From Capitulum mitella (Eukaryota; Arthropoda; Thecostraca; Pollicipedomorpha; Pollicipedidae), in contig CP099845.1 of NCBI GenBank assembly GCA_030062745.1, positions 19,012,903-19,076,902 on the forward strand: a DNA stretch of 64,000 nucleotides. The letters are read 5' to 3'. Of this stretch, positions 3,651-64,000 are shown piece by piece. Under the pieces are notes generated by a model that had not been told where the DNA came from, did not search any database, and saw nothing but the letters and a program-made list of their open reading frames with translations. Within the stretch, counting starts at the first letter, position 1. Each line of letters begins with the position of its first letter. The position numbers and the translations under genes were made by a program.

Positions 3651-3910
3651 GGCTGAAGCATCGCCCGGACGACCCCTGACCTGGCCGTTGCCGGTGGCCC
3701 CACTGTCCGCCGGCCGGGGCCGGGCGGGGGGGGGGGTGCCGGCCGCACGTGGGACGTGCCCGTCCTGCTGCGCCATTCGGCCGACATGTTTGCTCGGCTA
3801 CGTGTCCATCCGGGTCAGGAGCGTCACGTCCCCAACTGACAGGCGGCAACGGCGGCTGACGGCGCGGCGCGGCGCGGCGCCGCCGGCGCGCGGCGGCCCG
3901 CCTCGCCAGG
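3651..3910. other. GC-rich low-complexity block
   Basis: An abrupt switch from AT-rich to very GC-rich DNA, with a run of eleven or more G around 3725 and a (GCGGC)n stretch near 3865. It leads directly into the GC-rich minisatellite that follows. It could be mistaken for a CpG island, but no exon is attached to it. Confidence 0.6.
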
Positions 3911-4357
3911 CCTGAACCCGGCCGGTCATCCTAACCAGCCTCCCGACCTGACCCCGGCCGGTCACCCTGACGCACACCGCCGCACCTGACCCGGAGCTGG
4001 TCATCCTGACTCACACCGCCGAACCTGACCCCGGCCGGTCATCCTAACCAGCCTCCCGACATGACCCTGGTCGGTCACCCTCACTCACACTGCCGGGCAT
4101 GACACGGAGCGGTGATCCTGACTCACACCGCCGCGCCTGGACTGGACTGGTCATCCTGACTCACACCGCCGGGCACGACCCGGAGCGGTCATACTGATTC
4201 ACACCGCTGGACCTGACCCGGAGCGGTTACCGCGACCCGCACCTCAGGACCTGACCCGGCTGGTCATCCTGACTCACACCGCCGGACCTGAACCAGGGCG
4301 GTCACTCTGACTTACACCGCCGCACCTGACCCGGAGCGGTCATTCTGACCAACCTGA
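3911..4357. repeat. GC-rich minisatellite, about 12 units of 36-39 bp
   Basis: Units begin cctgacccgg, continue with agcggtcatcctgac and end with tcacaccgccg. Twelve units can be lined up, with point changes and two recurring variants (ending accagcctcccga or acaccgccgga). A degraded tail of similar words (gactcatccc, ctcaccctc) continues to about 4560. Confidence 0.85.
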
Positions 4358-37800: not shown

Positions 37801-38536
37801 CCCTAGACGGCCACTGTATTTCTTCAACTCGGCTAGCCGCGGCAACCGTCCAGCGGTCGCTGTCCGGTCCTCTGAGGTGCCGGTCCTCCGAGGTCAGTGC
37901 AGCCGCTGGCAGCGGTCCAGCGGTCGCCGTCCTCGGTTCACAGCTCTCCTGTCGTCTGCTGTCCGTCCAGCCGCCGACAGCGGTCCAGCAGCGCCGCGTC
38001 CGTCCGCGTGTCTATTTCCGTGGCGGCCGGCTCGGGCTGTGCCGTGATTAACCGGGATGGCCGGCCGTCTGGGCAGCGCCGCGGGTCGCGCGCCAATGTT
38101 GCCAGCGGCATGTGGGGGTAAACAAAGCGGGGCGGCCGGGGACGGGGCCGCTGGACCGCCGCCTGGCTCCGCCCCTGCGCGGTCAGCTGGCGAGGAGGGC
38201 GTACCTGGCGGCCGGCACCTGGCCGAGGCGGCCCGAGGCGAGTCGCCGCGACGTCAAGCGACCCGCCCGGCCCGGTCGCAGACCCCTGCGGCGTCTCGGC
38301 GCGAGGCGGTGTCGCCGGTCCGCCGCCTGTTGACGTGGTGTAAGACTGGCGGCGAATGGCTAAGAGAAGTGCTTCCGGAGGTCGTCACGCCCCCTTGGCG
38401 GTAATCAAGACAGACCAGTATAGCCAGGACCTCTGAGAAAACCTGACACTGGTGGCGGTGAGCCTGTTCAGCGGCGACCGCAGCTTCAGGGCGGACCGCG
38501 GGAGGCCCTCCTGCGGCGAGACGCCGTGCGGGAACC
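37801..38536 (+). promoter_or_regulatory. CpG-rich region upstream of exon 38537
   Basis: GC content and CpG density climb sharply, with internal repeats of gcagcggtccagcggtcgc (37900-37990). This is the likely promoter and 5' untranslated region of the first-exon candidate that follows. An in-frame TGA lies at 38459-38461. Confidence 0.45.
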
Positions 38537-38929
38537 ATGGCGCTCCGGAGGCGCGACTCCCTCGGCGCCGACCCGGCCCTCTCCGACTCGGAGGACGGCT
38601 CGCTGTCGCTGTCGGACGGCGAGCGGGCGACGTCCTCCGAGGACGGCTCGGCCGAGGACGCCTCCTCCGAGGACGGCTCCTCCTCGGAGGGCTCGTACGC
38701 GTCGGCCGAGCACGACGACAGCCGCCGCGAGGTGCAGGAGCCGGAGATCGTGCCCGAGGTGCACGTCTACCCGATCGTGTCGCAGCGGCACACGTGGTGC
38801 GTGGAAGAGGAGCACCTGCACTACCAGTCCTCCTACCAGCATCAGATCGTGCACGGCTTCAACCAGACGTTCCGGCGGCAGTATCAGAGCTTCCGCCGCC
38901 GCCGCGGGCGCAGCATCTATACCCTGGAG
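38537..38929 (+). CDS. Candidate first coding exon, acidic Ser-rich N-terminus
   Basis: The ATG in ggaaccATGg has a strong start context. 131 codons run to the donor CTGGAG|gtgagg in phase 0. The first half is a Ser/Glu/Asp-rich stretch (SEDGSAEDASSEDGSSSEG). The second half is His/Gln/Arg-rich and ends RRRRGRSIYTLE. The frame is very GC-rich at third positions, like the real exons nearby. No family was recognised. The next coding exon on this strand with a phase-0 acceptor that I can support is the calpain core at 59678, so this may be a distal calpain first exon; it could equally belong to another gene whose later exons I missed. Confidence 0.45.
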
Positions 38930-38944
38930 GTGAGGTCATACGTA

Positions 38945-38950
38945 TTTATT
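38945..38950 (-). terminator. NAGK: Possible NAGK poly(A) signal (minus strand)
   Basis: tttatt on the plus strand reads AATAAA on the minus strand, 635 bp past the NAGK stop codon. If used, the NAGK 3' end would reach almost to the plus-strand exon ending at 38929. Confidence 0.35.
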
Positions 38951-39321
38951 GCCACGATCGTAAACGTGCGACAAATTGCCTCCGGCTAGATAAGGCGTCG
39001 TGCGCTATCAAATATCATGGACGTACACGCGTCACACTGTGTCGCCTCCTGCTTAACGTCAGGGCCCGGGTCTGGGGAGGAATGCGATGCGGTGGTGCAG
39101 ATGAATGGCTGGTAATCGGATTCCGGAACGGCACGCCGAGCTGGAGGAGCTCAGTACCGTGTCTGCTTGAGCGCTGGCCTGTGATGTGGCTCGGAATGCG
39201 CTTCCTCTTCATGCCTCGCCGCGCCGCGCCGGCCGGCGTCTCCAATTACATCCGGCGCCAGACTAAAAAACGCGCCGCTGCGCTCCGACCGGACCGGCAC
39301 GTGCGGTACGCCCAGCGTGGC

Positions 39322-39557
39322 ACCGGTACCGGACCGAGCGGCACGCCTAGTGCGCTCCGACCGGTACCGGCACGTGTGGCACGTGCCGGTACCGGTCCGA
39401 GTGGCACACTCAGCGCACGGTACCTGTACTTGTCAGTGTGGCACGCCCAGCGCGCGGTGCCGGTACCAGTCCGAGTGGCACACTCAGCGCGTGGTACCGG
39501 AACCTGTCATTGTGGCGCGTCCAGCGCGCGGTACCGGTACCGTTCCGAGTGGGCACC
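39322..39557. repeat. 74-bp minisatellite abutting the NAGK stop codon
   Basis: The word tccgagtgg starts at 39396, 39470 and 39544, exactly 74 bases apart. A related unit lies around 39333. Units contain ggtaccggtacc and gtggcacactcagcgc. The array ends 28 bases before the NAGK stop codon, so it lies in the NAGK 3' untranslated region. It keeps long frames open on both strands. Confidence 0.8.
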
Positions 39558-39584
39558 GGGCGTGCTGCGGCGCCAGAGCCGCTC

Positions 39585-40610
39585 CTACCAGCCCGGCGGG
39601 GTCCGCCGCCACACGCAGAGCGGCTTCGAGTTCTGGCCGTAGTCCTTGGGCAGGTCGTAGTCCGCGTCCTTCGCGGCCATGTAGGCGGCGCCGAGCGCCA
39701 GCGAGCCGGTCAGCTGCAGCAGCGTGAAGGCCGGCAGGTGCGTGGCCACCTGCTGCACGAAGCCGGCCTGCATCAGGTCCCACGACTTGAAGACGGCGCC
39801 GACGGCGACTATGCTGAGCCCACCGGGCGCGCGCAGCAGCTCCTCCGCCACGCTGGGGAGCAACGCAACAACGAAGCGACCCAGCCAGCGGCCGGCGTCG
39901 ACGAAGAACTCGCGACAGAGGGGGTCGCCCTCGTGCGCGGCCGCCGCCAGGTGCTGGCAGAGGCCCGCGAACTTGGGCTTGCTGAAGTTGGTGTAGGCGT
40001 GCTCCAGCATGCCGAAGCGGTCGACCACGTTGAAGTATCGCTTGATGCACTCGCGCACGACGGCCGAGCTGTGCGGCGGCGCGCTCAGGTTGTCGTCCTC
40101 GTCGAACACGCACTTGACGGCGCGGCGCGAGATCCACCAGGCGCTGGCCTCGTCGCCGAACATGTAGGACCAGCCGCCGCAGCGGTGTACGCCGCCGTCC
40201 GGGTTCAGCAGCAGGCTGTTGGAGCCGGTGCCCGAAATGAGGCAGACGCCGCCGTGCGGGAACGCCGTCACCACGGCGCCGACCGAATCGCTGCACACCA
40301 CGCACCGCTCGGCCAGGCCCGGGTAGCGCGCCAGCAGCTTGTCGCGCAGTTCGCGGTTGGTCTCCTCCACCTCGCAGCCGCTCGAGCTGATGCCGAGCGC
40401 GCGCAGCCGCGTGTCGGCCGGCAGGCCGGCCGCCGCCAGCGCCTCCGCCACCAGCTGGTGGAAGCGCTCCACGGTCGCGTCCATGCCCTCCAAGTAGAGG
40501 TTGGTGCCGGGCCCGCTGCTGCTGCCCAGCAGGCGGCCGTCGCCGGCCAGCACTTTGGCCACCGAGTGGCCGCCGCCGCCCTCGATGCCGCCGAAGTACA
40601 CCGCCGCCAT
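39585..40610 (-). CDS. NAGK: N-acetyl-D-glucosamine kinase, single exon
   Basis: 341 residues in one uninterrupted frame, against 344 for human NAGK. The family phosphorylates GlcNAc to GlcNAc-6-phosphate in amino-sugar salvage, in the cytosol. Visible motifs are the start MAAVYFGGIEGGG, GTNLYLEG (sugar site), CSDSVGA with the catalytic Asp, ISGTGSN, CGGWSYMFGDEASAWWI, SAPPHSSAVV and VGAVFKSWDLMQAGF. The ATG follows gcggcggc and matches the family start. The residue after GGG, normally Thr in the phosphate-binding loop (EGGGTRS in human), is Gly here (EGGGGHS). The gene lacks introns where vertebrate NAGK has several, so a retrocopy origin is possible. It lies on the opposite strand between plus-strand exons. 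Confidence 0.93.
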   Translation of the reverse strand: MAAVYFGGIEGGGGHSVAKVLAGDGRLLGSSSGPGTNLYLEGMDATVERFHQLVAEALAAAGLPADTRLRALGISSSGCEVEETNRELRDKLLARYPGLAERCVVCSDSVGAVVTAFPHGGVCLISGTGSNSLLLNPDGGVHRCGGWSYMFGDEASAWWISRRAVKCVFDEDDNLSAPPHSSAVVRECIKRYFNVVDRFGMLEHAYTNFSKPKFAGLCQHLAAAAHEGDPLCREFFVDAGRWLGRFVVALLPSVAEELLRAPGGLSIVAVGAVFKSWDLMQAGFVQQVATHLPAFTLLQLTGSLALGAAYMAAKDADYDLPKDYGQNSKPLCVWRRTPPGW

Positions 40611-41320
40611 GCCGCCGCTGCGTGAACCGTGCCACGTGCGACTGCTGCCACGTCCGGCGCGCGAGTGGCGCAGGCGCGGCGCGCGCCGGCCGACGGCGGC
40701 GGCGGCGAGCCCGACAGCCGGCCACGCCGCCGTTCCACTTTCACGCCGGGCTATCTAGCCGGCATCGCCGGCCGCCCAGAGGGTTTTGTGGCGGTGACCC
40801 TCGGCCGGCGAAGGGAGCGCGTCAGGACTGAGGATCACTGTTGTGAGCGGGTCGCCGCCAAACGGGTCACGGCCCCGTGGGGGCTTGCAGCCAGGGGGAG
40901 GGGCGGGGTGGATTCCGTCCGCTGCAGGGGTGAGCGCGACCTGCTGTTTGCTCCGCACCGCTGCTCCGTCTGCCCCGGTTAAGCCAGCTCAGACGACGCG
41001 CCGCGCTGGTCTGACCGGTTCATTTGCATCGAATCGGCTGCGCTTTCGGAAGCTCGGACACCGGTTCCGGCGGATCGGCGGCGAGTCCACCGTTAGAAAG
41101 AGACGCCGACGACTCGCTGTGGACGAGAGCCCTCCACGCCTGCGGCAGCAGGTGTTCGCCATGTTGCCGGACTCGGTTCTCGAAGCCGCTGCGAGGAAAT
41201 TCTGCGGCGCCTCAACGGAATGCTTTGAGGCCGCAGTTGAAAACCGCGGCATAATCGAGACCCGCTGCTGTGGCTGGCACTCGCGCCAGAAAGCAGGATA
41301 AACAGAGAGGCCGGCGTCCG
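40611..41320 (-). promoter_or_regulatory. NAGK: CpG-rich upstream region of NAGK
   Basis: Very GC- and CpG-rich sequence immediately 5' of the NAGK start, the expected promoter position. Both strands have short open frames here (for example a 46-codon frame from the ATG at 41161, plus). None has recognised similarity. Confidence 0.45.
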
Positions 41321-42300
41321 CGGTCTTTTGATTTCGCCCGCAGTCGACGCAAGGGCGAGTTGAGTTTTGTTTTTGCCTCGGCAGCTGGTTTTCGTTGATC
41401 TTGACTTTCGAGTTTACGAAACGGCTGTGCGTTGACCTGGATTTTGTCCGAATATCGGCTAAATGTTTATGTTACTCGTGACCCAGATGGGCGCCACATT
41501 GCTATTCGACCCTGAATCATATCATCTCTCAATATGCATTTGCGAAATTCACTTGCACTTCACCGTTCCACGACGCAATATAGAACCGGCTATTGTGTAC
41601 CTTCAGTGGAATGTTTCATTCATTCACGTGGTATGATCTATCAAATATCGTGCTGCGTACTTATTTTCCTCTTAATAAAACTTCACTGTGATTTGTTATC
41701 ACACCATTGGTTCATAACGCCTATGAAAATAGCCTTGGCCTCATGTTCAGGTCAGGTCAATGAAAGGTCCGACAGCAGACAACAACACGAACCACCTCAG
41801 TCCCGACATGACTTGACAGCAACATAATGACAAAGCTAATTGGCCAACATCTGCCAGTCACAGGACGAGTACCGCCTCAGCTACGCATTAGAAGCGTGAA
41901 ATAAAAACTGGAAAAACTGCAAAACTGCAAAATCGTATGGGTCACGTCTGGTCATTACTCGTATGCAGTTTTTTTTGTGTTAGCCGTGCCGTATCCGTGT
42001 AGATCCGTTCCAAGTCCCACATCACACGGAAGCCCGCTCGGAAAAAACATTGTTGGGCTTAGTAGTAGGTAACGGACACTGCCAATGTCTATAATCATCG
42101 ATATCCTAAACTCATGGTGAATAAGGAAAGCATGCATTGGCAGTCGTAGTAGAGATTAGATAGAGGGGTACCATTGTCAGCAACTGAGTCGGCGGGCTCA
42201 TTTCAGCTTCACCGAACGCAGTGGTACCTGCCCAAGGGGTCCGTTAAACGCACTGGGTTTCATGAACACTTAGACCGAGCTCCCGCCTCACTGGACTGTG
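41321..42300. other. Non-coding, no recognised feature
   Basis: Moderately AT-rich; nothing recognised. Confidence 0.5.
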
Positions 42301-43597
42301 ACGTATTTCGAAACGGTCGGGCGTGTGGCGGCCCGGCGCCGGCGAACCGGTCCAGAGGAGTGGGACAACCCCCGAGACGCGCCGGTGCGTCCGTGCCTGA
42401 GATCGGCCGAATATGAGGACAGTCGCGGCGGGGCCACGGTCCGCCCCTATTCCGGGCTTTCTCGCTAGGACGGTCTGCCGAGAAATCGGTGAAACCCGCG
42501 GCCGCGCGGAACTGACCGATTTCGGCGCCGAGTCACCGATTCACCGAATTGGGCGCCTTTGCGGGCGGCGCGGGCCCTTCTTCCGATGAGTCGGAACGAG
42601 TTCGGAGCTCGGCCGCGTCACAAAGAGCCGGCCGCCTCCGTGGGAGGCCTGGCACCGCTCCCGTCGGCGGCTGGAGGGGGCGGGGAGGGGACGGAAGCGG
42701 TCGGACCCTGACCGGCCGCCGCCTGCCGCGGCGCTGTGAGCGCAGGCCGTGATAGCGGTGTGGACACGCCGTGAGCCCGACCTTCGCCAGACGCGCGATC
42801 GATCGGGACGGCGGCGCGGCGCCCTCTCTCCGTCCTCTCTCGCCGCCCTCCGCGCCTCCTCTGCCCGGGCCGGTGCGCTCTGAGCCGCGGGGACCGGCAG
42901 AGCGGAGACGGAACGCCCTCACGCCACACGACAATCGGCCTGACGGCGTGGCGTCACACTGCGGCGCTGACGCCACCAGAGAGAGGGGGCGGTCCCGGAG
43001 GAATGCTGCGGGCGCGCTTCGGCGCCTGGGTGACGCCACACTGCGGCAGTGACGTCATACCAGACTGGCTGAGACCGGTCCTGCAGCCGTGGCGGCCGCC
43101 CGGCGCCGCCGGCACGGTTTCAAACACCCGTGCCTCCGCCCACCGGCCTGTTTTGGCCGCGCGGCACACGAGCCGGCACGTCACGCCGGCACCAGCCCAC
43201 CTGCAGCCTCACAGAGTCGGGAAGCGCGCGCCGCTCCGCCCGTGTGTCGACGCCGACGCACACAAATTGACCTTGCGTCGCGGCCGGCGCGTGGAAGCGC
43301 CGCGGCCCGCCGGCGGTCGCCGCCTGCGTGCTACTTTTAGTGCCGGGCGAACGGGCGACGTGGGCAGTACCGGGGGCGGCGCCGACGGCGAAAGTGAGCG
43401 CAAACTGCGCGTCGGGCGCCCGTGACCGCACTAGCAGGAGCGTTGCAGAGCCGGGAGTCCCTGCGTCGCCCGCGGCGCTGCCGTCCAGGAAGTACCCGTG
43501 ACTCGCCGGCCGCGGCGGCCGCGGCGCGGCGTTGTCGTCAGCCAGTCGGCAGGAGCTCCCCGCCGTCGCCGCACGCGCGCGAAGGTGATCCGCGACC
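42301..43597 (+). promoter_or_regulatory. CpG island upstream of exon 43598
   Basis: About 1.3 kb of very GC- and CpG-rich DNA leads into the first-exon candidate. The phrase gtgacgccacactgcggc / gcgtcacactgcggc occurs twice (42945-42970 and 43030-43050). Long open frames on both strands are an effect of base composition. Confidence 0.5.
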
Positions 43598-43906
43598 ATG
43601 CCGAAGAAGCGCTACAACCCGTACGCGGTGGCGTCCACCGAGGCGCGGCTGGAGCGGCTCGTGGACGACGAGAAGCCTCACGACGCCGCCGGCGTCAACC
43701 CGTACCTGGTGACGGGCCACGCGCTCTACAGCCTGGGCCAGCCGTACGACCCGTACCGCGTCAAGCCGCTCAAGCCGTTCGACGTCGAGGAGGCGAGCGA
43801 CAGCGCCGTGCAGGAGGAGCTCTGCTCGTGCCGCTGGATCGACCGGGGCGACATCGTCGACGAGGCCGACTACCTGTACCAGCTGGGCAAGCACGACGCC
43901 CGTCCA
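43598..43906 (+). CDS. Candidate first coding exon, MPKKRYNPYAV...
   Basis: The ATG in cgaccATGccg is preceded in frame by TGA at 43586-43588, so translation must start here. 103 codons run to a consensus donor CGTCCA|gtaagt in phase 0. The peptide begins MPKKRYNPYAVASTEARL and has a Tyr/Pro-rich middle (GQPYDPYRVKPLKPF) and a Cys-containing acidic end (ELCSCRWIDRGDIVDEADY). It does not read like compositional noise: codon third positions are GC-rich while residues stay varied. No family was recognised. Phase and strand fit the calpain core exon at 59678, but that link is inference. Confidence 0.55.
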
Positions 43907-44348
43907 GTAAGTGCCGGCGGGCGCGGCGGGGGGCGCGCCGGGCGGGGCGGGGGGCGGCTCCGTGGCGAACATGGCAGCCTGCCCGTCTCTGACGGGCCGT
44001 CGGCCGTGCCGGGTAAACGGCTCGGCTACAGCGCAGCCGGCTGGTAGAGCCGCGCATGGCATGGCTCCTGGCTCGCGATGTCCGGACTGGGCGAACGCTG
44101 GGTTGGCGCGAACTCGTCAGATGGTCGTGTGTTTAATTTTGGTTGGCGGACTTCACGGCGGCACCTCGAGGGTAAATCGGTATCTTTGATGAGTGAAATT
44201 CATTAGAAGTCCTTTTTCTGTATCAGATACCTAATTCACTTGTCATGTTTGGCCAGCGAGTTGATTCACCATTAGCATTATGAAGAACATTACGTATACT
44301 TAGCTACATTCCTCTGGGATAATTTTTTTTTTTCTCTCTCTCCCTCCA

Positions 44349-55273: not shown

Positions 55274-55450
55274 ATGTCTATTTCAGAAGTTAAAGGAAAA
55301 ACAGCTCAGCCTTCGTCATGTCTAGCATTATCTCCAAGAAGGAGCGTGGCCACTTCGCCCGTCTTCTCCCTCGTTCCTTCCTGTTGCTCTGCTGCAGCAT
55401 GTCCGCCCCCGTCCGGTCCGCCTCCGAGCGGCTACGCACCTCCACTCCAG
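55274..55450 (+). CDS. Possible Pro-rich calpain exon
   Basis: A good acceptor (tgtctatttcag before 55287) and a consensus donor (CTCCAG|gtaagc after 55450) bracket one open frame, which ends ACPPPSGPPPSGYAPPLQ in phase 0. Read as a first exon it would start at ATG 55274 (MSISEVKGKTAQPSS). Read as an internal exon it would need a phase-1 donor upstream that I did not find. Pro/Gly-rich N-terminal extensions are known in fly CalpB. A shorter frame from ATG 55318 would exit in phase 1 and not fit calpain. Confidence 0.35.
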
Positions 55451-55762: not shown

Positions 55763-57377
55763 ATGTACCTGCGAAACAGCGGCACCGGCGCCGCCGCGTG
55801 GCGCCGTGCGGGCGCGCGGACGGCGGAGGACGACGCGCCGCGCGACCCGCCGCCGTCGCTGACGTCGTGGCGGAGCGCGTCCAACCTGCGCGTGCGCGAC
55901 GCCGCCTTGCCGCGGCCCTGGAGCCGGCCGCGCACCGGCACCAACGTGGAGCGGCTGATGGCGCGGCTGCAGCGGCCGCGCGGCGAGGCGGCGCCGCGCG
56001 CCGCGTGGGCCGACCTGCCGCGTGACGAGCCGGCCGGCGGCGGCGCAGAGCCGGCCGCGGCCGACCGCGCCCGACCGCGACCCAGGAGCATGGTGCTGCC
56101 GGGGCCGCAGGCGGAGGTGAGGACGCGCCCGGGCTGGGAGGAGGCGAGGGCAGCCAGGGGGGTCCGCGGCGCAGGCGACGCAGAGCAGGCGGCGAAAACG
56201 CTGCCGAGCCGGCGAGAAGGGCTCAAGACGGACGCCGCGCGTAGTGGGTTATACCATGTGACGGTGGCGAAGGTCGCGGAGCGTGGATCGGAAGACACTG
56301 CCCCCGCTGCTGAGCCATTTCCCAGACGCAGAGAAAAGCGCGCTGCCGACGCCGCGCCGAAGAGCGTTGAGGACTCTGGCAGGGAGGAACAGGGTCTGTC
56401 GGGTCGCTTTTCCCGACCGAGGCCGAGAAGCATGGTCCTGCCGGGCCCGCAGGCGGAGACGCAGCCGCGCCGGAGCTGGGAGGAGGGGCGATGGAACAGG
56501 AGCAACAGCGGCAGCGGGGAGGCCAAGGACGCGGCAGAACAGCTACCGAGCCATCGCGAAGGGCTCGAGAATGATGCTGCTCCTAGCGGGTTGTACCACG
56601 TGAAAGTGGCGAAGGTTACAGGGAGCGATTCGGAAGAGACAGCCCCAGCTGCTGCACCGTCTGTCACACGCAGAGAAAAGAGCGCTGTCAGCACCGCGCC
56701 GAAGAAGCGTTGAGGACTCTGGTAACGAGGAACAGGGTCTGTCAGGTCGCTTTTCCCGACCGAGGCCGAGGAGTATGGTCCTGCCGAGCCCGCAGGTGGA
56801 GGCGAAGCCGCGCCGGAGCTGGGAGGAGGCGCGAAGGAGCGGGAGGAGCAACAGCGGCAGCGGGGACGCCAAGGACTTGGCCGAAGTCCCAACAAGCCGT
56901 CGAGACGAGGTCAGGACCGAACCTGCTCCCAGTGGAGTGTATCGCGTGGAGATGGTGAGCGTTACGGAGGCGGGTTCGGAAGACGCGGCCTCGGCGACTG
57001 AGACGCCTCCAGGACACAAGCAGAACGGCGCTGTCGACGCCGCGCCGTCCGAAAGCCTTGACGACCAGATCGTGGCGAGCTCGGAGACGGCCGTCGTCTC
57101 TGGCCGTCTCCCGTCTCCGCCGGACGTGATCGCCGGGACGGCGGAGCCGCGCTCCCCGTCGGGTCAGGAGCCGGTCGGCCCGGACTCTGCGCCGCGGACC
57201 GGCCTGGAGCCCGAGTGCCGGCCCGTGGTCGCCGTCAGGAAGCTGGAGGCAGTCCCGGTGACCTCTGACCGGGCCGTCGCCGACTTCTCGCCGTCCTGCG
57301 ATGACCTCGGGGTGATCCGGAACAGGGGGTGCAGCGGACGGCTCCGCGGCACGGACGCTCGCTCCAAAGTCTTCTTG
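55763..57377 (+). CDS. Long calpain N-terminal exon with three 114-residue repeats; one-base frameshift
   Basis: Opens at ATG 55763 (MYLRNSGTG) and runs about 538 codons to the donor KVFL|gtgggt at 57377, phase 0, matching the calpain core at 59678. The peptide is Arg/Pro/Ala/Ser-rich and probably disordered. Three repeats start at RSMVLPGPQ (ATG codons at 56090, 56432 and 56775). Each carries an SWEEG/A-type box, SGLYHVxVAKV, SEDTAPA and RREK. The first spacing is 342 nt; the second is 343. The extra base lies at 56703-56706, where repeat 2 has gaagaag against gaagag in repeat 1. It closes the first frame at TGA 56711-56713, while the following repeat stays open in the next frame. It may be an assembly error, an allele or a true break. 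A final unrepeated part (PSPPDVIAGTAEPRSP...) leads to the donor. No known domain was recognised. Confidence 0.6.
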
Positions 57378-59677: not shown

Positions 59678-59854
59678 TTGAACGAGCGCGGCACAGGCCT
59701 GAGGTCTCGCGGCGAGGTGCAGGACTTTGAGAAGCTGCGCGCCCAGTGTCGGCGCACCGGTCGCCTGTTCGAGGACCCCGAGTTTCCGGCCACCGACTGC
59801 TCCATCTTCTTCTCGCGCACGCCGCCGCGGCCCTTCCAGTGGAAGCGGCCTCAC
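59678..59854 (+). CDS. Calpain core exon 1
   Basis: Starts in phase 0 after cttccccccag and encodes [20 protein letters not shown] through [10 protein letters not shown] to QWKRPH. Donor CAC|gtgagt, phase 0. The phase-0 acceptor is what makes it compatible with all the upstream first-exon candidates. Confidence 0.92.
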
Positions 59855-62800
59855 GTGAGTGGACAGCGGTGGACAGCGGTGGACAGGGAGCGTGGTGAGA
59901 GGGGTGTGGGTGTGTCAACAGGGAAACGAGAGACGTGTTTATGGTTCACATGTTTTCGTGTTAGCGTTGTTCGTGAGGCGCGTTTTGCTTATTGCTACCA
60001 TTTACATAAAGAACGTTTGTTTTAGCATCGGTTGGGCATTTGGTGGGTTTCTTTTCTTGTTGTGAAGTTGGTGACGTTTACCAGCTCTGCCGTAACCAGA
60101 TTAAAATACTAACTGATAAAAATTATAGTCATGTTACAAACTCGGTACACCAAAACCGACGCCAGTCCATGGACGACGTTTAGTGTTGTGGATTTTCGTC
60201 CGCAATGGAAATGTGGTGGACTCGAGCCCACACCTCCTCTTCTGACCGCAGGAAATCAGTGACTGCCCGCGCTTCATCTCCAAGGGCGCCACCCGTTTTG
60301 ATGTCCGGCAAGGCGAACTGGGTACGTAAGGTCTCGCCGTCATCTCCATTAAAACATCGACAGTGAAGGTATTACGAGGCGTGGTTTGGGTGTCTGAATA
60401 AAAAAGACAACAAGAACGAATTCCGCCCCTCACCACCCCAAATGAACCGTTCTCGGTTCCAAAAGACGACTTTTAACTGGAACTCCATGCATCACGACAT
60501 GTTGCCTCGGCTTTTTTACTCTTTTAGAACGGATCACTGAAAATGGTTACTTCAAATAAATTTCGTTTCCTTATTTTTTCCATTGAACGGCCATTTCAAA
60601 TCGTCACTTGTCAGGGTAGCCTCAACATGGTAAACATATCCAATGACAGTTTTCCACGTGAAGCTTTTAACAGTTCACACCGTCTTTATGAGAAAAGTCG
60701 GCTGTTGAAATCAGGATCGTAGCCGCGATTCCGCTAAGGAGGGAACCAGAACAAAGCTTCAAAACTGAAAACTCCTCGGATTTCATTCACGTTATTTGTA
60801 GGTCTAGAATTTTGTGTTGATAGATATTTTTTTCGGTGCGTAAAGAAACGTAAAATTATTAGCCCCAAGGGACCCACAGTCCGCCTTGGCCACACCCGTG
60901 CCTGAACCTGAAGACACCTGTTTGGAACTCACGTCTTTCAAGTACCGTTCTCATGGCTACTTGATGAATCACCAGTGATATCGCAAGGAAGGCTGATTGC
61001 GTCGCGTCAGAAGGGCGTTTTCTTTATGTGTTGCCTTGGCCCAGGTGTGTGCCCACCAAGCCTGATCCCGAATGGCTTTCCGGTGACAATCAGAGCTGAT
61101 CTCCGGAAGGAGCGATGAGTTCAGCGCCCGAGCTGGGCGTCGGAACCGGTCACTCGTTATCGCCACAGCGCGATCACTTAGAACACCTACGAACAGCCCT
61201 GACGGGCTTTGTAAACATTGCGGCACGAGTCGTCGTCACGGCTGCTTAGTGCGGTTGCTTGCAACGTCGTCTGACAAGCCGTGATGTGAATGGCACCCAT
61301 CGGAAGAGGTCAGCGCATGGCATGTCGGCGCACCTGAAGAAGTAACTGGTCATATGAATCGAAGCATGAGACCGTCGCAGACAGATTATTGCTGATTTGT
61401 TACTGTCGCGACCGGCAGTTGTGAACGGGAGTGGGTTCGGAATTTTGCCAAGAGAGGAACACATTTTTTTATGCCCGACAATGCTTCGCATTGGTTTACG
61501 ACCCCGAGAAACAGCTCATTGATGTGCCTCTTTACCTCTTTGCTCGGAAATAACCCCCTGCACATGTCGTATCCGATTCTTCCAGAATCTGTTTTTGGAA
61601 AGACATGGACCGGTCACCGGTCATCACATTGCAGTCATAAAACATATGGTGCTATTTGGTCTTCGTCTTTCTTTGGTTCGGTCCATTATGTTTTGACGCA
61701 ATGCACGTTTTTGTCATTTAGGGTCTGTTTTGGGCCGATCGTGTCTCTGCAGGACCCAAAATCTACGAGGCTCTGTTCCTGGATTTTGTTTGGTCCAATG
61801 GGCATAGGATCTGTGCGTCTGCGCAGTTAGCATCAGTGCCACTGTGACTTGGTATCTAATCCCGGATTGTTCAGTGAGCATCCTTTGTGACGGCAGGTGA
61901 CTGCTGGCTGCTGGCCGCCGTGGCCAACGTCACCTTGAACAAGGACCTGTTCGCCCAGGTGGTCCCGGAAGGCCAGGAAATGGACGACGATTACGCCGGC
62001 ATCTTTCACTTCCGGTACACAGCTGTTGCAAACTGGCGCCGCGAAACTGTTAAATCCGACTCCGCGGTGGTTTGAATGGGACAGTCGACCTGACTGAAGC
62101 ACCGCAATGAAATGTTCTCGGACAGTTTACTGCTTGATTCTATGGTGTCTGCAAAATCATTTATTCTACAGATGCATTATTACTTCCGCTTAACATTTAG
62201 GTTTCCTTCAGATATATGTAAAAACGCCGTTGGTGACTTTTAAACTACGGCTTTGCTTAAAACATACCGAGGGATTGTAATTTTTTTTTTGTTTCTTCTA
62301 ATAAAACGACGAGACGCCATAAACCCGTGGAACAGGACCATGCCTGCAAGTCTGGACCCTGCCTTACCTGCCGCTGCCGGTTCCGTCAGGTTCTGGCAGT
62401 ACGGTCGCTGGGTGGACGTTGTCGTCGACGACCGGCTGCCCACCTACCACGGCCAGCTGGCCTTCATGCACTCGGAGGACAACCACGAGTTCTGGTCCGC
62501 GCTCCTGGAGAAGGCGTACGCCAAGTGAGTGCCGCCGCCGACCTGCGTCCTCTCGGCGGCGAAAGCCGGGGAAGGGCGGCCGTCGGCGATGACGCTGTTG
62601 TTTATTCCGATGTTGCTTGATCGGAATGGGGGGAGGACGGATGTTGACATCTCTGTTTACACCGTCAGACTGCACGGCTCTTACGAGGCGCTGAAGGGTG
62701 GCACCACGTGCGAGGCCATGGAGGACTTCAGCGGCGGCGTCACCGAGATGTACGACATCGACAAGGCGCCCGACAACCTCTTCCAGATCATGCTCAAGGC

Positions 62801-63830
62801 CAACCAGCGGCAGTCCCTGATGAGCTGCTCTATAGAGGTGAGAATTATTATCCAGTTCTTTCGGTGGGCGGCACCTCTGCGTCAGAGAGATGTAGGGGAG
62901 AGATGTGAACGGGGTAAAACGGCCGACGGGAGGCAGCCAGCTGTTGCGTCGCGCGCTGCGGCTGCTCAAGCTGTTACGCTGACGGCCTGCACAAGACGGC
63001 TGTGCGATCGCCCAACGGACGCCTGTTCCGCGTTAGCCTTGGCGCGGAGGACGAGCATCAAACGAACTGTCGGTCTGCGCTGTGTAGCCGCCTGGCTCCA
63101 GATTGCCCTCCGTTCCCCTCCCCTTGCCCCGCGCCCGCCCAGCGCGTACTGGCGTCCGCACAGAGGAAAACAGCGCAAGTTCGTACAGCAGGCAGCTGGC
63201 AGCCGGCTGCAGGCCAGGCCAGACGCGAGATCTGACGGACAGATACACGCTGCTGCTAACCCTTGCCAAATTCCTGAACGTCAGCTGAAACATTTTTAGC
63301 TGGGTTCATTTGTAAGGAAGTCAGTGGGGAGGTCAGTGTTTTATTCACTTGCGTTTGAAATTTTAAGAACTTGGGTACCGCAGTGCATGTTTTTTCTTTT
63401 TTGTTAAGATAGGTCTGCCTTCAAGCCTAGTTATTAATCTGTTTCATTTGTACCTGTCTTTGTTGCGTTCGTGCACCACTGCGGTTCTGAAAATCCTGTG
63501 ACATCTTACTGGCCGATCAGGTTCACACACAGCTTGTCCCACTGCGGCTGCTGCATGTCCGATGTCAGTCTTCCTTACTCCCTCATTTGGCTGGAATGAT
63601 TTTCCTGAGGACCGTGTTTGACCACGGCGGCGTCGCTTCTCCCTGCAGCCGGACCCGTACGTGGCCGAGGCCGAGATGCCCAACGGCCTGATCAAAGGCC
63701 ACGCCTACTCGGTCACGAAGGTGTGCCTGGCCGACATCGAGACGCCGCGCGTCCAGGGCAAGATCCCCATGGTGCGCGTGCGCAACCCGTGGGGCAACGA
63801 GGCCGAGTGGAAGGGACCGTTCTCCGACTC
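59678..63830 (+). CDS. Calpain (CalpA/B-type) protease core, six exons, runs off the window
   Basis: Exons 59678-59854, 60252-60321, 61897-62014, 62390-62524, 62669-62837 and 63649-63830 join in perfect phase (0,1,2,2,0, then 2 at the edge). The order is [11 protein letters not shown] and [11 protein letters not shown] (the segment before the protease domain), [16 protein letters not shown] with the catalytic Cys (TGC 61902-61904) and the oxyanion Gln, [55 protein letters not shown], then [13 protein letters not shown] with the catalytic His (63700-63702) and [14 protein letters not shown] with the catalytic Asn (63784-63786). Calpains are Ca2+-activated cytosolic cysteine proteases. The sequence most resembles arthropod CalpA/CalpB. 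All catalytic residues are present, so activity is expected. The C2-like and any penta-EF-hand domains lie to the right of the window. Confidence 0.95.
60252..60321 (+). CDS. Calpain core exon 2
   Basis: 70 nt encoding [20 protein letters not shown] and GEL, ending in phase 1 (CTGG|gtacgt). A second GT five bases later (gtaagg) would break the frame into GDCW. Confidence 0.9.
61897..62014 (+). CDS. Calpain core exon 3 (catalytic Cys)
   Basis: Acceptor gtgacggcag. Completes Gly and encodes [18 protein letters not shown] through DYAGIFHF, ending in phase 2 at TTCCG|gtacac. Confidence 0.93.
62390..62524 (+). CDS. Calpain core exon 4
   Basis: Acceptor ggttccgtcag. Encodes [20 protein letters not shown] through [12 protein letters not shown], ending in phase 2 at GCCAA|gtgagt. 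Confidence 0.93.
62669..62837 (+). CDS. Calpain core exon 5
   Basis: Acceptor ttacaccgtcag. Encodes [20 protein letters not shown] through LMSCSIE, ending in phase 0 at GAG|gtgaga. Confidence 0.93.
62838..63648 (+). other. Calpain intron 5
   Basis: 811 bp between core exons 5 and 6. The open frame that continues past the exon 5 donor is read-through and not coding. The intron between core exons 2 and 3 (60322-61896) is also free of recognised features. Confidence 0.7.
63649..63830 (+). CDS. Calpain core exon 6 (catalytic His and Asn)
   Basis: Acceptor cttctccctgcag. Encodes [20 protein letters not shown] through [18 protein letters not shown], ending in phase 2 at GACTC|gtgagt. The next exon is outside the window. 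Confidence 0.93.
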
Positions 63831-64000
63831 GTGAGTGGCGTCCGGCGGCGCCGGGCGCGGACAGCAGCGGCTGGAGTTGGGGCCGCGTCTCCGAGCCTCA
63901 GATGATGCACTGCGATTCCGCGATTTTGATTCCTGTTTTGATCGAACGTGGTCATGGTCATTGCACAGTTTTGATTTTGAGCACAGAACGCTGAGTCATT

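Follow-up and report, generated by a model that had tools for sequence, protein, structure and literature searches.

A tandemly triplicated 114-residue unit in the probable N-terminal tail of a barnacle calpain

Do three tandem copies of a 114-residue unit that lie ahead of a calpain gene in the barnacle Capitulum mitella belong to the enzyme, and what might they do there? We analyzed a stretch of 64,000 nucleotides of contig CP099845.1 (positions 19,012,903 to 19,076,902, assembly GCA_030062745.1), referred to here as the window. The copies lie in a long exon that is the calpain gene's putative first coding exon (55763..57377, + strand, as are all units and exons described below), which runs from an ATG at 55763 to a splice donor after 57377 (gtgggt); an in-frame stop is located upstream, just before 55712. 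Our analysis indicates that the repeat is real, that it is restricted to this lineage as far as one genome can show, and that the calpain whose probable N-terminal tail it occupies is a classical one.

An earlier note, made from the letters of the window alone, had described three repeats with starts 342 and 343 nucleotides (nt) apart, and two descriptions of the array agree with it. Self-comparison of the window places three tandem copies with starts at 56021, 56363 and 56706, with spacings of 342 and 343 nt. Tandem Repeats Finder reports a period of 342, 2.3 copies and 80% matches, with a score of 984 that is the highest of the 28 rows for the window. Unit 1 (56066..56407) is 114 codons long and closes with the linker SVEDSG...SGR, which is counted in that length. 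Unit 2 (56408..56750), with its own linker, is 343 nt long, equal to unit 1 plus one base. Unit 3 (56751..57048) is one codon longer than the other two in the middle and is most diverged in its second half. Nucleotide identity is 234/342 between units 1 and 2, 213/340 between units 1 and 3, and 261/340 between units 2 and 3. Conserved positions cluster in the boxes to which the note had drawn attention, and these boxes hold overall, with variants. RPRPRSMVLP is unchanged in the three units; units 1 and 2 both have RSMVLPGPQ itself, where unit 3 has RSMVLPSPQ. Unit 1 carries GWEE in place of SWEE. SGLYHVxVAKV is present in units 1 and 2 and becomes SGVYRVEMVSV in unit 3, and for SEDTAPA unit 2 has SEETAPA and unit 3 has SEDAASA. 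The variation is greatest in unit 3, where much of two boxes has been lost.

Downstream of the long exon, six exons with GT-AG borders join in an open frame that contains the sequences GDCW, GHAYSVT and NPWGN; we take the first to carry the catalytic Cys and the other two the catalytic His and Asn. The next coding exon (59678..59854), where the protease region starts, ends in KRPH and matches Peptidase_C2 at E 3.3e-4 with 20.3 bits, slightly below the curated cut-off of 23.8. It is followed by an exon placed by its splice letters and open frame (60252..60321) and by the exon containing GDCW (61897..62014), which is covered by a Protein Data Bank (PDB) alignment to calpain-9. Peptidase_C2 is then matched at 62390..62524 (E 6.4e-21 for 62385-62525), at 62669..62837 (E 1.4e-16), and at 63649..63830 (E 6.4e-15 for 63649-63831), the exon with GHAYSVT and NPWGN, after which the gene continues beyond the window. 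In all, three of the four exon pieces searched exceed the cut-off for this family. With a query of 284 residues, whose last residue includes one donor base, the best PDB match is 1ziv (calpain 9; E 8.9e-100), and 19 distinct PDB sequences are found at E up to 0.001. Four further pieces were searched past the window. They contain the last part of the protease region (Peptidase_C2, E 5.7e-10), a Calpain_III match corresponding to the C2-like domain III (E 5.6e-20) and two stretches of EF-hand_1 (E 1.5e-11); one of the four matched no family, and additional open reading frames were judged EF-hand-like by eye. The combination of protease core, Calpain_III and EF-hands therefore defines, at the level of sequence, a classical calpain (CysPc - C2L - PEF), with the penta-EF-hand domain seen as two scored EF-hand_1 stretches. 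The donor at 57377|gtgggt has phase 0, as does the acceptor before 59678. This match supports, and does not prove, that the long exon is joined to the calpain, since another donor or first exon is possible; it agrees with the position that had been proposed for the repeats, as protein-coding sequence ahead of the calpain exons. Further upstream, an open frame beginning at ATG 55318 (55318-55450; MSSIISKKERGHFARLLPRSFLL...) ends at a strong-looking donor, CTCCAG|GTAAGC, and may represent a first exon, upstream or alternative, or else a separate small gene.

The long exon proves not to be one continuous frame: an extra nucleotide shifts the frame, which the note had overlooked. A spacing of 342 nt equals 114 codons and one of 343 nt is not a whole number of codons, so the reading frame moves between units 2 and 3. 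Alignment to unit 1 locates the extra base near the end of unit 2, at about 56,700 (frame-break site 56698..56713). The frame opened by ATG 55763 closes at a TGA at 56711-56713, and unit 3 through to the donor is open in the next frame. The exon thus consists of two open segments, with codon starts modulo 3 equal to 2 up to about 56705 and equal to 0 from 56706. We modeled the base frequencies at each codon position, fitted on the calpain exons. The best two-frame model has a log-likelihood of -2140.2, with the switch at 56708, compared to -2245.4 for the best single frame, a gap of 105 log units. Each of five exon segments favors the frame expected for its side of the break, including the coding stretch after the repeats (57049..57377), which ends in RSKVFL at the donor and in which frame 0 is ahead of the other two by about 69 log units. 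Together, the two-frame model and the five segments indicate that both sides of the break bear the coding signature of the same gene. The simplest and most probable account of the break is a sequencing or assembly error, or a segregating allele, with no place in the design. An assembly of this species is reported, in excerpts of two articles, as 478 Mb in 16 chromosomes; Canu was run on PacBio reads and Pilon then applied three times (PMC8416341, PMC11331182). Programmed +1 frameshifting finds no support at this site; unit 1 reads through the equivalent place in one frame.

Is the unit a known domain, or one copy of a larger family? The earlier note had recognized no domain, and the searches are in line with this: Pfam, NCBIfam and PDB gave no accepted sequence match, which rules out a folded known domain as far as sequence is concerned. 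In Pfam, the first open segment matched only Flagellin_D3 (E 0.27, under the cut-off) and the second matched nothing; the three units and the two flanks, namely the 101-residue Arg/Pro/Ala-rich stretch before the repeats (55763..56065) and the stretch after them (searched as 57045-57377), matched no family at E up to 10, a search in which the HMMER filters drop most weak matches. The stretch before the repeats is also unlike the units by tblastn within the window. NCBIfam returned only PRK10016.1 (E 0.12, far under the cut-off), and no PDB sequence matched either tail segment or the unit profile. We then searched the whole genome (477,042,490 bases in 16 contigs), scoring only the best candidates. 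Among these, the protein search at E up to 1 gave four matches, the three units themselves and one on contig C3 that looks like chance (30% identity, E 0.97, in a 198-residue Arg/Ala-rich frame), and the DNA search gave two, both inside the array. A dispersed repeat family is rejected, with only one locus found among the best candidates scored genome-wide. In collections where an animal tail is not expected, 36 pattern matches in viral contigs and 89 in prokaryotic contigs yielded no confirmed case. Titles and abstract openings among the literature matches listed mention no barnacle or arthropod calpain tail with such a repeat. 'Undescribed' therefore means not found in Pfam, NCBIfam, PDB or this genome; annotated proteins of other barnacles may well contain the unit.

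The three units do not share a single history along their length. Of the sites at which two units agree against the third, 39 join units 1 and 2, 23 join units 1 and 3, and 47 join units 2 and 3. Before codon 42, units 1 and 2 are joined at 3 sites versus 32 for units 2 and 3; beyond it the counts are 36 versus 15, a contrast reached in 0 of 10000 permutations. Unit 2 is thus nearest to unit 3 over its first 41 codons and nearest to unit 1 beyond them. The linkers preceding units 2 and 3 are identical at 47 of 51 nt. This mosaic pattern indicates that homogenisation, or duplication, is more recent for the early part of units 2 and 3 than for the remainder. Part of the box conservation reported earlier is consequently recent homogenisation, a point that had been missed. 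For the same reason, identity between units 2 and 3 is poor evidence of selection, and units 1 and 2 offer the better comparison.

Selection on the encoded protein was assessed by placing the same substitutions at random and comparing the synonymous count. A synonymous bias, the check proposed at the outset, is seen between units 1 and 2 (uncorrected P = 0.017; dN/dS by Nei-Gojobori 0.43) and between units 1 and 3 (uncorrected P = 0.028; dN/dS 0.54), and it fails for the remaining pair, as discussed below. The wrong frames give P values of 0.90 and 0.98 for units 1 and 2, 0.81 and 0.91 for units 1 and 3, and 0.95 and 0.53 for units 2 and 3. The pair of 17-residue linkers has 4 differences in the 45 nt tested (P = 0.34), too few to be informative. 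Between units 1 and 2, RPRPRSMVLPGPQAE spans 15 codons with five synonymous and no amino-acid changes, and SGLYHVxVAKV spans 11 codons with four synonymous changes and one amino-acid change. Runs free of amino-acid changes reach at most 15, 10 and 12 codons (P = 0.016, 0.026 and 0.015, respectively, by codon shuffling). Constraint on the units thus appears uneven and modest, and the units are best described as partly constrained.

Arg, Ala and Pro are abundant in the first segment of the tail (fractions of 0.146, 0.172 and 0.102), and Ser, Arg and Pro in the second (0.134, 0.107 and 0.103). A charge-hydropathy index scores the first segment as disordered. We infer probable disorder from composition, because the index also calls a folded calpain exon disordered; composition is thus what supports the disorder proposed in the earlier note. 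Two kinds of candidate site stand out when the tail is compared with shuffled sequences; 12 patterns were tried, and the P values carry no adjustment for that number. The first is RxRxx[ST], a consensus of basophilic kinases of the Akt type, which occurs 5 times versus 1.3 in shuffles (P = 0.006); three of the five are the unit copies (RPRPRS). [LV]Y occurs 3 times versus 0.4 (P = 0.004); three of the four Tyr residues in the two segments sit in the G[LV]Y box. The CK2-type pattern [ST]xx[DE] is also more common in the tail (21 versus 11.7, P = 0.002). According to excerpts of PMC6694742, which cites the preference from other work, calpains favor Leu, Thr and Val in the P2 position and Lys, Tyr and Arg in P1, and their cleavage sites are enriched in disordered regions; excerpts of PMC4824854 describe the sites as diverse, with no simple rule that decides. 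The L-to-V change in unit 3 retains a preferred P2 residue. The motif counts fit both cleavage and phosphorylation and prove neither.

The reading we favor, at a rough probability of 45%, is that the array forms part of a lineage-specific regulatory tail on a classical calpain, self-cleaved at the repeated boxes and tuned by phosphorylation. The three units would make up the middle of an N-terminal extension of about 540 residues, presumably flexible and regulatory. Each unit would present a basophilic kinase-type site, RPRPRS, and about 55 residues further on a calpain-type cleavage site, G-[L/V]-Y, with Leu or Val at P2 and Tyr at P1. Once activated by Ca2+, the calpain would cleave its tail itself at the G[L/V]Y boxes, with phosphorylation serving to tune or localise it. 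Repetition would supply more sites, in an array that expanded by duplication and was partly homogenised afterwards. The nearest precedent, likened by description only, is Drosophila CalpB, which has a long N-terminal tail and undergoes autolysis at the N-terminus. Excerpts on CalpB report a 224-residue tail of which the exact function is unknown (PMC3441222) and N-terminal autolysis to a stable, active form (PMC5650170). The barnacle tail is repeated and, at about 540 residues, longer. In the classical calpain AplCCal1 of Aplysia, also compared by description only, autolysis instead inactivates the enzyme. Vertebrate calpain-9 and related classical calpains are alike in the protease core: the 1ziv match begins at the fifth residue encoded by the exon that follows the long one, and the tail is unmatched in PDB.

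Several observations weigh against this reading. The shift of frame may be genuine. By the charge-hydropathy index the second tail segment is a borderline case and an exon of the calpain itself counts as disordered, so the index discriminates poorly. The full cleavage preference, [LTV][KRY], occurs about as often in the tail as in shuffles (15 versus 14.4), and the motif P values are too small, as they count non-independent repeat copies as independent. Synonymous bias is absent between units 2 and 3 (P = 0.50, dN/dS 0.83), a threefold correction takes all three P values above 0.05, and mosaic homogenisation explains part of the identity between units 2 and 3.

Alternatively, the exon could be a largely neutral, disordered spacer, Arg/Pro/Ala-rich and GC-rich, which unequal exchange and gene conversion have enlarged, its composition and frame being only loosely constrained. 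We regard this as unlikely, yet a serious contender: the mosaic identity, the nearly identical linkers, the dN/dS range of 0.43-0.83, the missing synonymous bias between units 2 and 3 and the eroded boxes of unit 3 all suit a spacer, and it accounts less well for the 15-codon stretch without amino-acid changes and for the lack of bias in the wrong frames. That RPRPRSMVLP is the same in all three units and the Tyr box is not could instead point to a docking or targeting module, in which a partner (a phospho-reader, or a protein of the cytoskeleton or membrane) reads this short linear motif and the threefold repetition provides avidity that places the calpain. Such a module seems improbable to us, as there is no 14-3-3 mode-1-type match, PxxP and K[KR]x[KR] are not enriched in the tail, and the unit has no Pfam or PDB match.

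The TGA in the only open frame that starts at ATG 55763 raises a different concern: the break may be a genuine lesion that has become fixed, with the long exon in decay or outside the expressed calpain, which would then be made from another start. We give this a slim chance, considering that the calpain-type, frame-specific base composition is kept before the break and after it, as far as the donor, and that the splice phase matches. Calpastatin also consists of repeated disordered units acting on calpains, with an inhibitory box marked by TIPP (TIPPxYR), and by analogy the barnacle repeats, of a similar order of length and beside a calpain core, could be a built-in inhibitor that covers the active site until removed. 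The barnacle repeats differ in lying in cis with the protease. Membership in the calpastatin family is rejected: none of the three units matches it in Pfam at E up to 10, and TIPP occurs 0 times in the tail. A calpastatin-like inhibitor is accordingly very improbable. So too, in our estimation, is a repeat-based switch in cis: three disordered units would restrain or place the protease, a basophilic kinase acting at RPRPRS would arm or release these units, and self-cleavage one by one at G[L/V]Y would let the number of intact units count Ca2+ pulses.

Elsewhere in the window, three 2-kb bins at 38000-44000 have a G+C content of 0.62-0.69 versus 0.39-0.53 in most of the window, and contain several short tandem arrays. 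Two other tandem arrays are located at 3904-4349 (period 38 and 113) and at 331-536 (CGCCATTTTGGC-like units, period 15-16, 47 and 62).

The array bears on how invertebrate calpains are controlled and on what role their variable N-terminal tails play. If the array is only a homogenised spacer, it would be a plain case of concerted evolution in a disordered exon. If the repeat-based switch were true, calpastatin-like control would have arisen independently within the enzyme itself. The countable, regularly spaced candidate sites of the barnacle tail would allow autolysis and phosphorylation to be studied site by site.
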